From Clostridia bacterium (GTDB taxonomy: Bacteria > Bacillota > Clostridia > Christensenellales > QALW01): a stretch of DNA of 41,530 nt. Below are positions 36,949-40,880 of this stretch, piece by piece. The notes beneath the pieces are model-generated. The model was not told where the DNA came from and did no database searches. It was given only the letters and a program-made list of their open reading frames with translations. The stretch is from contig JAFVVO010000036.1 in assembly GCA_017502165.1 (NCBI GenBank), positions 1 through 41,530 of the forward strand. The letters run 5' to 3'. The position numbers and the translations under genes were made by a program. The first letter of the stretch is position 1; the number at the start of each line of letters is the position of its first letter.

Positions 36949-37734
36949 ATGAAAAACATTAAATGCGTAATGCTTGATTTGGACGGTACTGTTTATTTAG
37001 GGGATAATATCTTCCCCTGGACGCTTGAATTTTTATCCCGTCTTGATTCTTTAGGCATAAAACACATATTTTTGACCAATAATTCTTCAAAGGGCACCGA
37101 CGCCTATATTCAGAAGTTTGCAAAAATGGGAATAGAGGCTGACGAAAGCAATATTTTAATCAGCTCACACGCGGCGGCAGACTATATTAACAATAATTAT
37201 AAGGGAAAACGCACCTTTATTTTAGGCACCGAAAGTATGCAAAACGAAATGAAGGCTCTCGGCGTTAACGTTTGCGAGGACGAGCCCGAAATTCTTCTTG
37301 CAGGCTTCGATACCGCCCTTGATTATAATCGCCTTACGAAATTTGCGAACTTAGTGGCAACGGGGCTTCCCTATATTGCCACCCATCCCGACGCAGTTTG
37401 CCCTGCAGAAAACGGCTTCTTGCCCGATTTGGGAAGCGTAATCGAGCTTATTTACGCCTGCTGCAAGCGTCGTCCGCAAGTTATCTGCGGAAAGCCTAAC
37501 GAACAGATTTTAATTGCCGCCGAGCACAAAACGGGCTTTTCAAGAGAAAATCTCTTAATGGTAGGGGACCGCCTTACTACCGATATTGCCATCGGCGCGT
37601 GGGGCATCAAAACTGCCCTTGTGCTTTCAGGTGAAGCGACTATGGAGGACGTACCTTCCGCGCCCCACAGACCCGATTATATTTTCCCCAGCATTAAAGA
37701 GCTTGGGGAAGCCTTGGAAGAAGCAAATAAATAA
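36949..37734 (+). CDS. HAD-IIA family (NagD-like) phosphatase
   Basis: 261 aa. Motif I MLDLDGTVYLG (nucleophile and acid Asp), motif II LTNNSS, a C2-cap region with SSHAAADYI, and the motif III/IV segment VICGKPNEQIL and MVGDRLTTDIAIGAWGIKTALV. This is the class IIA architecture of NagD/AraL/4-nitrophenylphosphatase-like sugar-phosphate or nucleotide phosphatases. Substrate not predictable. Cytosolic. Gene stands alone with a GAGG ribosome binding site. Confidence 0.9.
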   Translation: MKNIKCVMLDLDGTVYLGDNIFPWTLEFLSRLDSLGIKHIFLTNNSSKGTDAYIQKFAKMGIEADESNILISSHAAADYINNNYKGKRTFILGTESMQNEMKALGVNVCEDEPEILLAGFDTALDYNRLTKFANLVATGLPYIATHPDAVCPAENGFLPDLGSVIELIYACCKRRPQVICGKPNEQILIAAEHKTGFSRENLLMVGDRLTTDIAIGAWGIKTALVLSGEATMEDVPSAPHRPDYIFPSIKELGEALEEANK

Positions 37735-37736
37735 AT

Positions 37737-37757
37737 CGGGGAGATACCGTCTTCCCT
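37737..37757. repeat. Degenerate GGGGAGA palindrome
   Basis: CGGGGAGA-TACCG-TCTTCCCT is an imperfect relative of the GGGAAGGT palindrome, located right after the HAD gene. Confidence 0.45.
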
Positions 37758-37778
37758 CTTAAAAAACATCGCGGGGCG

Positions 37779-37811
37779 TTAGCGTGTTATCCTTAACGGA
37801 GAACACGCTAA
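37779..37811. repeat. 10-bp stem hairpin before the array
   Basis: TTAGCGTGTT / AACACGCTAA with a 13-nt loop, no T tract. It precedes the mini-hairpin array. Confidence 0.6.
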
Positions 37812-37820
37812 AACTAAGTT

Positions 37821-37984
37821 TGCCCTTATGGGCAAGTGAAGTTTACTTCGAAAGTGAAGTTATCCTGCGGATAGTGAAGTTTTGCCTTTGGCAAAGTGGG
37901 CAAACTTAACTTCACTGCGAGCCCCTGTGAGCAACTTCACTGTGCGTAGCACAACTTCACTTTCGCAGTAGCGAAAACTTCACT
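37821..37984. repeat. Mini-hairpin array with an orientation switch
   Basis: AGTGAAGTT occurs at 37835, 37853 and 37873; its reverse complement AACTTCACT occurs at 37908, 37933, 37953 and 37976. Spacers are different short palindromes: TGCCC-TTAT-GGGCA, TACTTCGAA, ATCC-TGC-GGAT, TTGCC-TTT-GGCAA, then on the right GTGC-GTA-GCAC and TTCGC-AGTA-GCGAA; one spacer (37917-37932) is imperfect. Because of the switch, the left and right halves can also pair with each other. There is no open frame through it. The rest of 37735-38228 contains the hairpins listed separately and no gene. Confidence 0.85.
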
Positions 37985-37985
37985 A

Positions 37986-38040
37986 ACAGAAAAAGAGCAG
38001 ACACATAAGGTCTTTTCCACTTGCGTGTTTACTCTTTCTG
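37986..38040. repeat. Long hairpin after the array
   Basis: CAGAAAAAGAG with CTCTTTCTG, extended by GACAC with GTGTT inside, with a ~21-nt loop. Immediately right of the mini-hairpin array. Confidence 0.6.
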
Positions 38041-38069
38041 CTTGTATAAAGGTTTGGGCTTAGCCCATT

Positions 38070-38137
38070 TGCATTTGACCAGTCAAATGCGATGCTCGAA
38101 CTTAACGATGTTTTCCAAATTCTCCGCTAAGAGCATC
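38070..38137. repeat. Near-perfect palindrome and further inverted repeat
   Basis: GCATTTGAC-CA-GTCAAATGC (38070-38089) is followed by the inverted pair GATGCTC (38091-38097) and GAGCATC (38131-38137). It ends about 90 bp before the GH2 start codon. Confidence 0.55.
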
Positions 38138-38228
38138 ACCCATTTTCGCCCCTTATATATTTTTTGATAGTTTTTATTGTCTAAAGCGGCAAAAATTTGC
38201 CGTTACTTAACAAATAAAGGGTGTTTTT

Positions 38229-39917
38229 ATGAGCCAATTTAACCATTTGAAAACTTATCAGGGAGAAAATCAATCTTATCCTCCCTTGAACGAATATCCA
38301 CGCCCCGCTCTAAAGCGTGATTCCTTCTTTAACTTAAACGGCTGGTGGGATTTCCGCTTTGAAGACGAAACGAAAATGCGCAAAATTCTTGTGCCCTACG
38401 TTTGCGAAAGTCTGCTCTCCGGCATAAACGAGCTGTCGGCAGGAAGAGATTTATTCTACTGTCGCACCTTTTCGCTTCCGCAAGGTTTTATAAAGGATAA
38501 GGTGCTTTTGCATTTTGGCGCAGTTGACCAGATTGCTTCCGTGCACCTTAACGGAACGCTTCTCGGCACTTGTGCGGGAGGATATTTTCCCTTTTCCTTT
38601 GATATAACCGACCTTTTACGAGAGGAAAATTTGTTAGAGGTTAAGGTTGAAGATAAATTGGATCTTCGTCTTCCCTACGGCAAGCAGAGCAACAAACGCG
38701 GCGGAATGTGGTACACCACCTGCTCAGGCATCTGGCAAACGGTTTGGATCGAAAGCGTGCCCGAAAACTATATTGAAAGCTTCGATATTTCCTGCACCTT
38801 AGAACAAGCAAGAATTACCTTCAAGGGCATTGAAACGGGTGAAGTTTCAGTTGAAGAAAACGGAACTACCGTTAAATACGAAATTAAAGACGGTGTTGCG
38901 GTTATCACCCCCGAAAATCCGATTTATTGGTCCCCCGAAAATCCGCACTTATACCATTTTACCGCCAAAAGCGGCAAAGACGAAATTTCGTCTTATTTTG
39001 CCCTGCGCACCCTTGAAATAAAAGATTGCAACGGCGTTAACCGTCTTTGCTTAAACGGTGAAAAGTACTTCTTTTCCGCAGTTTTAGACCAGGGATATTT
39101 CAGCGACGGTATTTTTACGCCCGCAAGTGAAAAATCCTTTGAGGAAGATATTTTAGCAATGAAAAGGCTTGGCTTTAACACTTTGCGCAAGCATATTAAG
39201 GTTGAGCCTCAGATTTTCTATTACCTTTGCGATAAATTAGGCATGGTGGTTTTTCAGGATATGATAAATAATTCCACCTACTCCTTTTTACGCGATACCG
39301 CCCTGCCCACCATCGGCTTAAAAAGGTTGAACGATAAATTCCTGCACAGAAATAAAATTTCACGTAAAAACTTTATTTCTTCAATGGTGGAAACGGTTAA
39401 TCTTCTTAAAAATCACCCCTGCATCTGCCTTTGGACAATCTTTAACGAGGGCTGGGGACAGTTTGAAGCAACTAAAGCGTACCGTTTGCTTAAAAGTATG
39501 GATTCCTCACGGTTTATTGACTCGGCTTCCGGCTGGTTTGCTTGTTGCGAGAGCGACGTAGAAAGTCTGCACATTTACTTCAAGAAATTAAAGGCTAAAA
39601 AGAGTGATAAGCCTATAATTATTTCCGAGTTCGGCGGATACGCTCTCAGCCTTAAGGACCATGTTTTTAACGAAAACAACGAGTACGGATATTCTAAATA
39701 CACCGATATTTCCACCTTTAACGAAGCGCTTGAACGGTTGTTTGAAGAGGAGCTTCTGCCCCTTATCAAGTCAGGAGTATGCGCTTCGGTCTACACTCAG
39801 CTTTCTGACGTGGAGGACGAAACTAACGGTCTTTTAACTTATGACAGAAAAATCTGCAAGGCAAGCGACAGCTTTGCGGAAATAAACAAAATGCTTTACG
39901 AAGAAATAAAAAAATAA
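38229..39917 (+). CDS. Glycoside hydrolase family 2 protein
   Basis: 562 aa. An N-terminal sugar-binding jelly-roll (~35-165: NGWWDFRFED, VHLNGTLLG, GIWQTVWIE), an immunoglobulin-like middle (~170-265) and a TIM barrel (~275-560). The acid/base pair is in LWTIFNEGWGQFE (Asn-Glu) and the nucleophile in IISEFGGYAL (Glu). It lacks the C-terminal domains of long beta-galactosidases. No signal peptide, so it acts in the cytosol on imported oligosaccharides; whether beta-galactosidase, beta-glucuronidase or beta-mannosidase cannot be told. AAGGG lies 8 nt before the ATG. Confidence 0.9.
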   Translation: MSQFNHLKTYQGENQSYPPLNEYPRPALKRDSFFNLNGWWDFRFEDETKMRKILVPYVCESLLSGINELSAGRDLFYCRTFSLPQGFIKDKVLLHFGAVDQIASVHLNGTLLGTCAGGYFPFSFDITDLLREENLLEVKVEDKLDLRLPYGKQSNKRGGMWYTTCSGIWQTVWIESVPENYIESFDISCTLEQARITFKGIETGEVSVEENGTTVKYEIKDGVAVITPENPIYWSPENPHLYHFTAKSGKDEISSYFALRTLEIKDCNGVNRLCLNGEKYFFSAVLDQGYFSDGIFTPASEKSFEEDILAMKRLGFNTLRKHIKVEPQIFYYLCDKLGMVVFQDMINNSTYSFLRDTALPTIGLKRLNDKFLHRNKISRKNFISSMVETVNLLKNHPCICLWTIFNEGWGQFEATKAYRLLKSMDSSRFIDSASGWFACCESDVESLHIYFKKLKAKKSDKPIIISEFGGYALSLKDHVFNENNEYGYSKYTDISTFNEALERLFEEELLPLIKSGVCASVYTQLSDVEDETNGLLTYDRKICKASDSFAEINKMLYEEIKK

Positions 39918-40475: not shown

Positions 40476-40646
40476 AAACGGACGGATATAAGCGCACACG
40501 TGCGCAGTTAAATTTTGTGCTTGCGCACATTGTCCTACGGACAGTTATATTTGCCTTTCGGCAAGTGATATTGCGCTTCGCGCAGTGATATTCGCCTAAC
40601 GGCGAGTGATATAACCCTAACGGGTTATTAAGGTGTGCTGACGCAC
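40476..40646. repeat. Mini-hairpin array (AGTGATATT type)
   Basis: Begins with AAACGGACGGATATA, then a run of seven hairpins: GCGCAC-AC-GTGCGC, TGTGC-TTGC-GCACA, TGTCC-TAC-GGACA, TGCC-TTTC-GGCA, GCGC-TTC-GCGC, CGCC-TAAC-GGCG and AACCC-TAAC-GGGTT. The last four are separated by AGTTATATT (40543), AGTGATATT (40564, 40584) and AGTGATATA (40605) at 20-21 bp spacing. The tail at 40617-40646 repeats 20883-20912. It lies downstream of the mscL terminator, so it may not be transcribed from mscL. The 40425-40917 interval holds no gene; the remainder is palindromic repeats. Confidence 0.85.
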
Positions 40647-40677
40647 TAAGCATTATATTGTTATTTATATCTATTCC

Positions 40678-40702
40678 TGTAGGGGAGGCAACCTGCCTCC
40701 CG
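40678..40702. repeat. Palindromic repeat, CGGGAGG type, reverse orientation
   Basis: TGTAGGGGAGGCA...TGCCTCCCGA: reverse orientation of the CGGG-stem/stem-CCCCTACA element seen at 40725-40755 and 23405-23435. Confidence 0.75.
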
Positions 40703-40724
40703 ATAAACGAATCCTTTGTTTTAC

Positions 40725-40755
40725 AAATTTCGGGAAGGTAATACCTTCCCCTACG
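40725..40755. repeat. Palindromic repeat, GGGAAGGT type
   Basis: AAATTTCGGGAAGGT followed by AATACCTTCCCCTACG. Shares its palindrome with 20629-20652, and its AAATTTCGGGAAG start with 23405-23417. Confidence 0.85.
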
Positions 40756-40788
40756 GTATAAAACATACAAATCCAACAAATAAATTAC

Positions 40789-40808
40789 GGCAGGAGTAAA
40801 CCCCTGCC
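40789..40808. repeat. Palindromic repeat, GGCAGG type
   Basis: GGCAGGAGTAAACCCCTGCC is the exact reverse complement of 20944-20963. A small hairpin GTGCC-AAC-GGCAC follows at 40841-40853. Confidence 0.8.
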
Positions 40809-40880
40809 CTACAAAATGCAATATGTCAACTATAATATCCGTGCCAACGGCACACCGCAGTTGTTCACCATTCATCAATA

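Follow-up and report, generated by a model that had tools for sequence, protein, structure and literature searches.

The window, that is, the entire stretch of DNA analysed here (41,530 nt), is a contig (C39) of a clostridial genome (G000) that comprises 1.83 Mb in 44 contigs. The array of interest lies between the genes encoding a HAD-family protein (positions 36949-37734) and a glycosidase-like protein (38229-39917); in another genome of the same genus (G001), these two genes (window 36949-39917) are not adjacent and are found on contigs C9 and C1, respectively. The linker AGTGAAGTT occurs on the plus strand at 37835, 37853, and 37873 and on the minus strand (reading AACTTCACT) at 37908, 37933, 37953, and 37976. 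The original prediction of a 9-nt repeat found three times and then, flipped, four times is therefore borne out, with seven copies versus 0.33 expected and at most 2 in any dinucleotide shuffle. The start-to-start steps of 18 and 20 nt in the plus set and of 25, 20, and 23 nt in the minus set agree with the proposed period of about 20 bp. The spacers, as also claimed, differ from each other and are mostly perfect hairpins: five are perfect (GCCC-TTAT-GGGC, ATCC-TGC-GGAT, TTGCC-TTT-GGCAA, GTGC-GTA-GCAC, and TTCGC-AGTA-GCGAA) and two are imperfect (TTACTTCGAA and GCGAGCCCCTGTGAGC). The array region folds much more stably than shuffled sequences do, with z scores of -12.7 on the plus strand and -8.4 on the minus strand.

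The box first drawn around the array (37821-37984) proved too narrow, as the structured unit covers positions 37815-37984 and the element as a whole approximately 37779-38145. Reading inward, the unit consists of the left-end arm TAAGTTTGCCC (37815-37825, plus strand), its partner GGGCAA (37830-37835), the left half with three AGTGAAGTT linkers and the mini-hairpins between them (37835-37881, plus strand), the central segment GGGCAAACTTA (37898-37908, plus strand), and the oppositely oriented right half with four linkers and their mini-hairpins (37908-37984, minus strand). The center is the exact reverse complement of the left end (an 11-nt inverted repeat, 100% identity), so the left-end arm can pair either with the local GGGCAA or with the center. 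Related elements, in which the central segment is also found, are organized alike, and their arm, partner, and center have changed in concert. The array in the window shares with the PF05635-linked family described below the facing linker-hairpin halves and a center complementary to the left end. An origin of the right half by snap-back copying from the left half was rejected, as its hairpins are not the reverse complements of those in the left half.

The left half overlaps a plus-strand match to the Rfam family Gut-1 (RF01706) at 37811-37885, which is marginal (51.0 bits, with the gathering cut-off at 50), and the right half gives a weak minus-strand match at 37929-37985 (30.7 bits, below that cut-off). 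Half of the array is thus covered by a motif listed since 2010 among noncoding RNAs. The claim that the array differs from known layouts is supported for CRISPR and REP; that it resembles nothing described is not supported, as the Gut-1 model of Rfam covers half of it. The CRISPR assignment was rejected because the repeat orientation flips and the spacers are hairpins; a MIR156 match at 37983-38044 (22 of 62 bits) was dismissed as due to chance.

A second array, one-directional and with GTGATAT linkers, lies on the plus strand at 40542-40617 (Gut-1, 73.6 bits). It spans window positions 40498-40640 and has related copies elsewhere in the genome, on contigs C2, C18, C10, and C42. The neighboring repeat TGTAGGGGAGGCAACCTGCCTCCC ... 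GGGAAGGTAATACCTTCCCCTAC ... GGCAGGAGTAAACCCCTGCCC (40670-40812) recurs beside arrays at four other loci (L008, L004, L007, and L022).

Copies, ends, and insertion sites of the element

The whole element (37779-38145, plus strand, about 367 bp) has inverted-repeat ends and a twin elsewhere in the genome: a 99% identical copy of 37779-38145 is located at C16:20634-21001 between quite different flanks, and diverged copies are found on contigs C35 and C26. The left terminal inverted repeat GTGTTATCCTTAACGGAGAA (37784-37803, plus strand) lies within a hairpin (37779-37811), and the right one, GTGATGCTCTTAGCGGAGAA (38120-38139, minus strand), was recovered with 0 mismatches. In a pattern search allowing at most one mismatch, four pairs of these 20-nt repeats in facing orientation were recovered from the genome, compared with none for the reversed control pattern. 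Between the array and the right end, the element carries a long A-rich/T-rich hairpin (AACAGAAAAAGAGCAGACAC...GTGTTTACTCTTTCTG, 37986-38041), predicted from the sequence and the fold, which is retained with a changed sequence in the C35 and C26 copies. Within an element the linker is uniform: GTGAAGT in the window, GTGATGT in the C35 and C26 copies and in the sister genus, and GTGAAAT or GTGATAT elsewhere.

The flanks of the element pair with each other. In the window, the 5' arm GGGGCG (37773-37778, plus strand) pairs with the 3' arm CGCCCC (38147-38152, plus strand), followed by TTATATATTTTTT, with a T-rich run after the 3' arm. The corresponding flanks are AAAAAAGCCAACGCA ... TGCATTGGCTTTTTT for the C16 copy, AAAAGCACCTATGGATA ... 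TATCCATAAGTGCTTTTTT for the C35 copy, and AAAAAGGACGAGAA ... TTCTCGTCCTTTTT for the C26 copy. The four sets of flanks are the arms of different intrinsic terminators, and the element sits in the terminator loop. For the eight complete elements, which represent two end types, the pairing of each element's own flanks was equalled in only 1 of 20,000 shuffled assignments, and element halves at contig ends show the same picture of terminator arms. No target-site duplication was detected in the complete copies. A truncated relative from a different family (L151, G013:C3:49551) lies between 19-bp direct repeats of half a terminator (AAAAACACCTTATCTATTA). At another locus (L199, G249:C16), terminator copies on both sides of a gene for a four-helix protein share their stems, and their loops are reverse-complemented (GAAA versus TTTC), resembling the flip of a hairpin end.

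Of the 31 arrays, 12 have a tRNA gene no more than 150 bp away and in every case lie 3' of it. In the rpiB intergene and in that of an XRE gene, the element, there with the second end type described below, is present in one genome of the sister genus (G004) and absent from the other (G003), with diverged flanks; because the flanks at orthologous sites have diverged too much, no clean empty site was obtained. Searches for plasmid or phage carriers of the element by DNA similarity, and for the exact array pattern in viral contigs, produced no matches.

With terminal inverted repeats and near-identical copies at unrelated sites, the element is MITE-like, and the 367-bp unit could be taken for an ordinary MITE on whose inverted repeats a DDE transposase acts to move it, with the hairpin array as a passenger. 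The clear repeats at both ends speak for this, and it is for the repeat-ended elements that lodging in terminator loops has been demonstrated. However, about ten copies in the sister genus (G003 and G004) have ends of a second type, and the two different end types bear the same kind of core; many other arrays lack such end repeats altogether and begin directly after the terminator T-run; and a search of seven genomes that allowed up to two mismatches found no gene-bearing element with these repeats. A passenger role of the array is therefore unlikely.

Mini-hairpins and the PF05635 partner protein

Arrays of hairpins in convergent orientation are found repeatedly across the Clostridia; their stems vary and covary, and their loops are one-sided. 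Pairing has been kept in the spacers: stems of at least 4 bp are present in 74% of the 170 distinct spacers from all fetched arrays versus 3.9% after shuffling. The fetched loci together contain 182 distinct spacers; 108 of them carry the C-T-N(1,2)-C-G loop at their center, against 7.8 expected by shuffling, and a loop of the reverse polarity is seen in just 2. The suspicion that self-pairing is preserved despite sequence variation, for which a test of spacer covariation had been proposed, is supported by the innermost stem pair, which is of the Watson-Crick type in 104 of these 108 spacers (39.9 expected with shuffled 3' arms). All four pair types are used at this position, and the Watson-Crick excess extends to all five stem levels tested.

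Since the loops on the linker strand are C-TNC-G or C-TNNC-G, those on the opposite strand are C-GNA-G or C-GNNA-G, and GNA or GNNA loops are known to form DNA mini-hairpins of extraordinary stability (PMC4686876). In the four-base GNNA loops, position 3 is occupied by purines and pyrimidines in a ratio of about 13 to 25; the lack of a purine bias there speaks against the RNA-type GNRA loop. Classical cUUCGg loops are missing from the array spacers. Folding energies do not separate the DNA form of the array from the RNA form, and it is for this reason that DNA as the active form is something we infer.

The genome of the window has 32 Gut-1 matches in 1.83 Mb, and matches that are closely paired run plus and then minus (for example, on contigs C34, C18, C41, C7, C16, and C39), with further such pairs in the genomes of the relatives and of the class. 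Within the order, G013 has the most copies observed, with 55 Gut-1 matches in 1.3 Mb and very long, one-directional arrays (for example, at L039). Absence of the pattern from related genomes, which would have refuted the original interpretation, was not observed. The distribution is patchy: of 41 related genomes searched, 7 have the pattern, as do 25 of 243 in the class. Many of the genomes used are probably metagenome bins.

The genes that adjoin the arrays repeatedly encode a four-helix protein of the PF05635 (23S_rRNA_IVP) family, TIGR02436, whose relatives with solved structures include 2RLD and 2GSC. PF05635 was found above the cut-off in 27 of the 31 array-bearing genomes versus 1 of 31 other genomes (Fisher p 5.6e-12), where the gene-negative genomes come mostly from the order and the positive ones mostly from the wider class. 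The count of 27 does not include G179; its single, weak hit adjoins a reverse transcriptase gene and is thus the DGR protein Avd. Array-bearing genomes without a PF05635 gene thus number four (G032, G105, G257, and G179, the last with the DGR-type hit only), and some PF05635 genes have no array. A Gut-1 match lies within 400 bp of 15 of the 76 PF05635 matches (approximately 0.5 expected), usually directly upstream of the gene, and many more PF05635 genes are preceded by arrays with other linkers (GCTAAAT, TGAATT, GCGATAT, or GTGATGC). The predicted structure of the protein (pLDDT 92.8) resembles 2RLD, 2GSC, and Avd; against Avd (4DWL), the model gives a Z score of 15.3 and an rmsd of 1.6 over 108 residues, with unrelated helical bundles reaching a Z score of at most 13.7. 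The proteins had no match in PADLOC.

The genome of the window has a single PF05635 gene (L233), which belongs to a clade without such an array; a PF05635 gene of the GTGAAGT class is absent from this genome, the sister genus being the one place where such genes turned up (L137 and L214). The four-helix gene is adjoined by tandem arrays at L137 (G003:C91), where a terminator hairpin with the loop GTCTACCGAC is repeated in every unit, and at L241 (an IMG/VR contig). The 23S rRNA IVP is among the genes newly tied to CRISPR adaptation modules (PMC10910872), and hairpin-heptamer arrays might pass for CRISPR arrays in that gene set.

On a tree of 30 PF05635 proteins, the ten linker classes (hand-assigned from the loci; an automatic two-strand 7-mer count agreed in 18 of 25 cases) require 10 changes, with a minimum of 9 and a mean of 21.4 for shuffled labels; none of 200 shuffles was as low as 10. 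The GTGAAAT, GTGATAT, GCTAAAT, and TGAATT protein clades each cover different host families, and five genomes (G115, G108, G149, G076, and G127) contain two protein-linker pairs each. Judged by this tree, the linker sequence follows the protein and not the host. The match may mean that linker and protein are inherited together as one mobile unit, that the protein recognizes the linker, or both; recognition is favored by the fact that all linkers of one element change in concert.

Outside Clostridia, PF05635 genes on plasmids of Cyanobacteriota, Bacteroidota, Spirochaetota, and Chloroflexota lie between inverted tandem short repeats, mostly heptamers, without hairpins; in Nostoc, for example, these are (AATTCGT)n and (ACGAATT)n. 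Of the 14 PF05635 genes, 9 have 10 or more inverted 8-mers in common between their flanks, compared with 0 of 370 control windows. On the Planktothrix plasmid NZ_LR882951.1 (L246), the PF05635 gene is located between drmD and pglX; at two other loci (L253 and L254), such genes lie between DUF1156 and Swt1-HEPN genes. At all three loci, the neighbors are genes of defence-type operons.

These data bear on the original classification of Gut-1, which Weinberg et al. judged in 2010 to be certainly RNA and confined to the human gut (PMC2864571); no further paper with the accession RF01706 was found among open-licence full texts. If the array is a structured noncoding RNA, its transcript would be the active form, for example, as a sponge with single-stranded GUGAAGUU linkers, and its copies would have spread as a useful RNA. 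The Rfam family was itself built on covariation, the stems do covary, and the arrays follow genes from which read-through could transcribe them. On the other side, the two halves face each other, so that one transcript never has both in the same sense; the GNNA loops lack the purine preference of GNRA at position 3, and cUUCGg is missing; and in other phyla PF05635 genes come with heptamers that have no hairpins. Taken together, these features make an RNA function of the array quite doubtful.

A domesticated bidirectional terminator or stabilizer of mRNA 3' ends, kept at gene ends for its effect on transcripts, would account for the arrays at terminators and 3' of tRNA genes and for a facing layout that fits transcripts from either side, but it is very improbable given the patchy distribution (25 of 243 genomes), the absence from orthologous sites, and a linker type that follows the protein rather than the host.

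A candidate mobile element and its proposed trans-acting protein

Elements of this kind are repeated, have two types of inverted-repeat ends, lodge in the loops of terminators, are missing at orthologous positions in a sister species, are linked to PF05635, and have linkers that match the protein clade. The array in the window is therefore probably the core of a gene-less mobile DNA element, derived from a PF05635 element, that would act as DNA, be bound by the protein, and move. It would belong to a large family whose gene-bearing members encode the four-helix-bundle protein (PF05635, 23S-rRNA-IVP/S23/TIGR02436, Avd-like), and the 7-9-nt linker would serve as a protein-clade-specific unit repeat in two facing sets. 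When one strand is exposed, the hairpins could form and the facing linker sets could bring the halves together; a PF05635 oligomer would then bind the linkers and hairpins and, with host enzymes, transfer the element or a copy of it to a different hairpin loop, for which transcription terminators, often with a tRNA gene nearby, would be preferred. As neither a reverse transcriptase nor a Y1 transposase is associated with the arrays, the enzymes involved would be those of the host or of another kind.

A wider proposal, for which we consider the odds to be even, is that PF05635/TIGR02436 proteins, including S23p, are the trans-acting part of a widespread and apparently undescribed class of mobile elements. 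The cis-acting part would be the facing arrays of a clade-specific heptamer (tandem heptamers alone in cyanobacteria and further phyla, heptamer plus DNA mini-hairpin arrays, i.e., Gut-1, in Clostridia), and entry would be into hairpin loops, be it in terminators or in 23S rRNA helices. Because the array repeat type travels with PF05635, it provides this family with a candidate target site, and the linker-protein match offers a concrete candidate recognition code. The presence of small S23/IVP proteins in 23S rRNA genes and at other sites has been unexplained since around 1990, with mobility proposed and a target lacking (PMC4990558). What Rfam holds as a certain RNA would be recast as one half of a mobile DNA element.

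Comparison with known systems

Gut-1 likewise consists of three hairpins joined by GUGAAAU-type linkers, but its model represents one half, described as a human-gut RNA, whereas the array in the window is a facing pair within a repeated PF05635-linked element. REP/BIME/REPIN sequences with their RAYT proteins combine short facing palindromes, a small cognate protein, and gene-less copies. The outline is similar; in the window family, however, the palindromes vary and the linkers are conserved. Mobilization of the RAYT/REP type was rejected because Y1_Tnp (PF01797) is absent from 6 of the 7 array-bearing genomes in the set of relatives (G000, G001, G003, G004, G013, and G019). The pneumococcal BOX, compared here alongside BrickBuilt, is a small inverted-repeat element with an internal repeat array. 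The BrickBuilt MITE of Porphyromonas gingivalis is, like the element in the window, a small inverted-repeat element with an internal repeat array near terminators (PMC4596501); unlike the window family, it has 23-nt tandem repeats, and the portion of its description consulted reports neither a mini-hairpin array nor a partner protein (PMC4596501).

The cyanobacterial STRR/SDR sequences resemble the window family in combining heptamer repeats with small compensating hairpins. According to Elhai (2008), hairpin SDR elements are reportedly found inside the tandem heptamers (STRR) of Nostoc; the heptamers seen here flank PF05635 genes in inverted orientation. We know of no previous link between STRR/SDR and PF05635.

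Two further systems involve proteins of the same family or fold. The intervening sequences (IVS) of 23S rRNA with an S23p/IVP open reading frame encode the same protein family, and the insert occupies or replaces a small hairpin loop; in Coxiella and other bacteria, an IVS stands where a 23S rRNA helix formerly had its small loop (PMC4990558). IVS have been proposed to be selfish elements, and a role of their open reading frame in mobility has been proposed, not shown (PMC4990558). In contrast to the IVS, the window family resides in terminators and beside tRNA genes, carries linker-hairpin arrays, and commonly occurs as gene-less copies. Avd of the DGRs has the same fold as the PF05635 model (4DWL), and DGR retrohoming needs a hairpin in the target DNA, with a free stem sequence and a GRNA loop (PMC3240598), much as the mini-hairpins combine free stems with a conserved loop. 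A DGR-type reverse transcriptase as the partner was itself rejected, RVT_1 being present in 10 of 31 array-bearing genomes versus 6 of 31 others (p=0.38). The parallels with IVS and DGRs fit an element that would be recognized through hairpins and enter hairpin loops. The linker-protein match also suggests that one hairpin-based principle may be common to the cyanobacterial heptamer repeats, the Gut-1 arrays, the rRNA intervening sequences, and DGR Avd.
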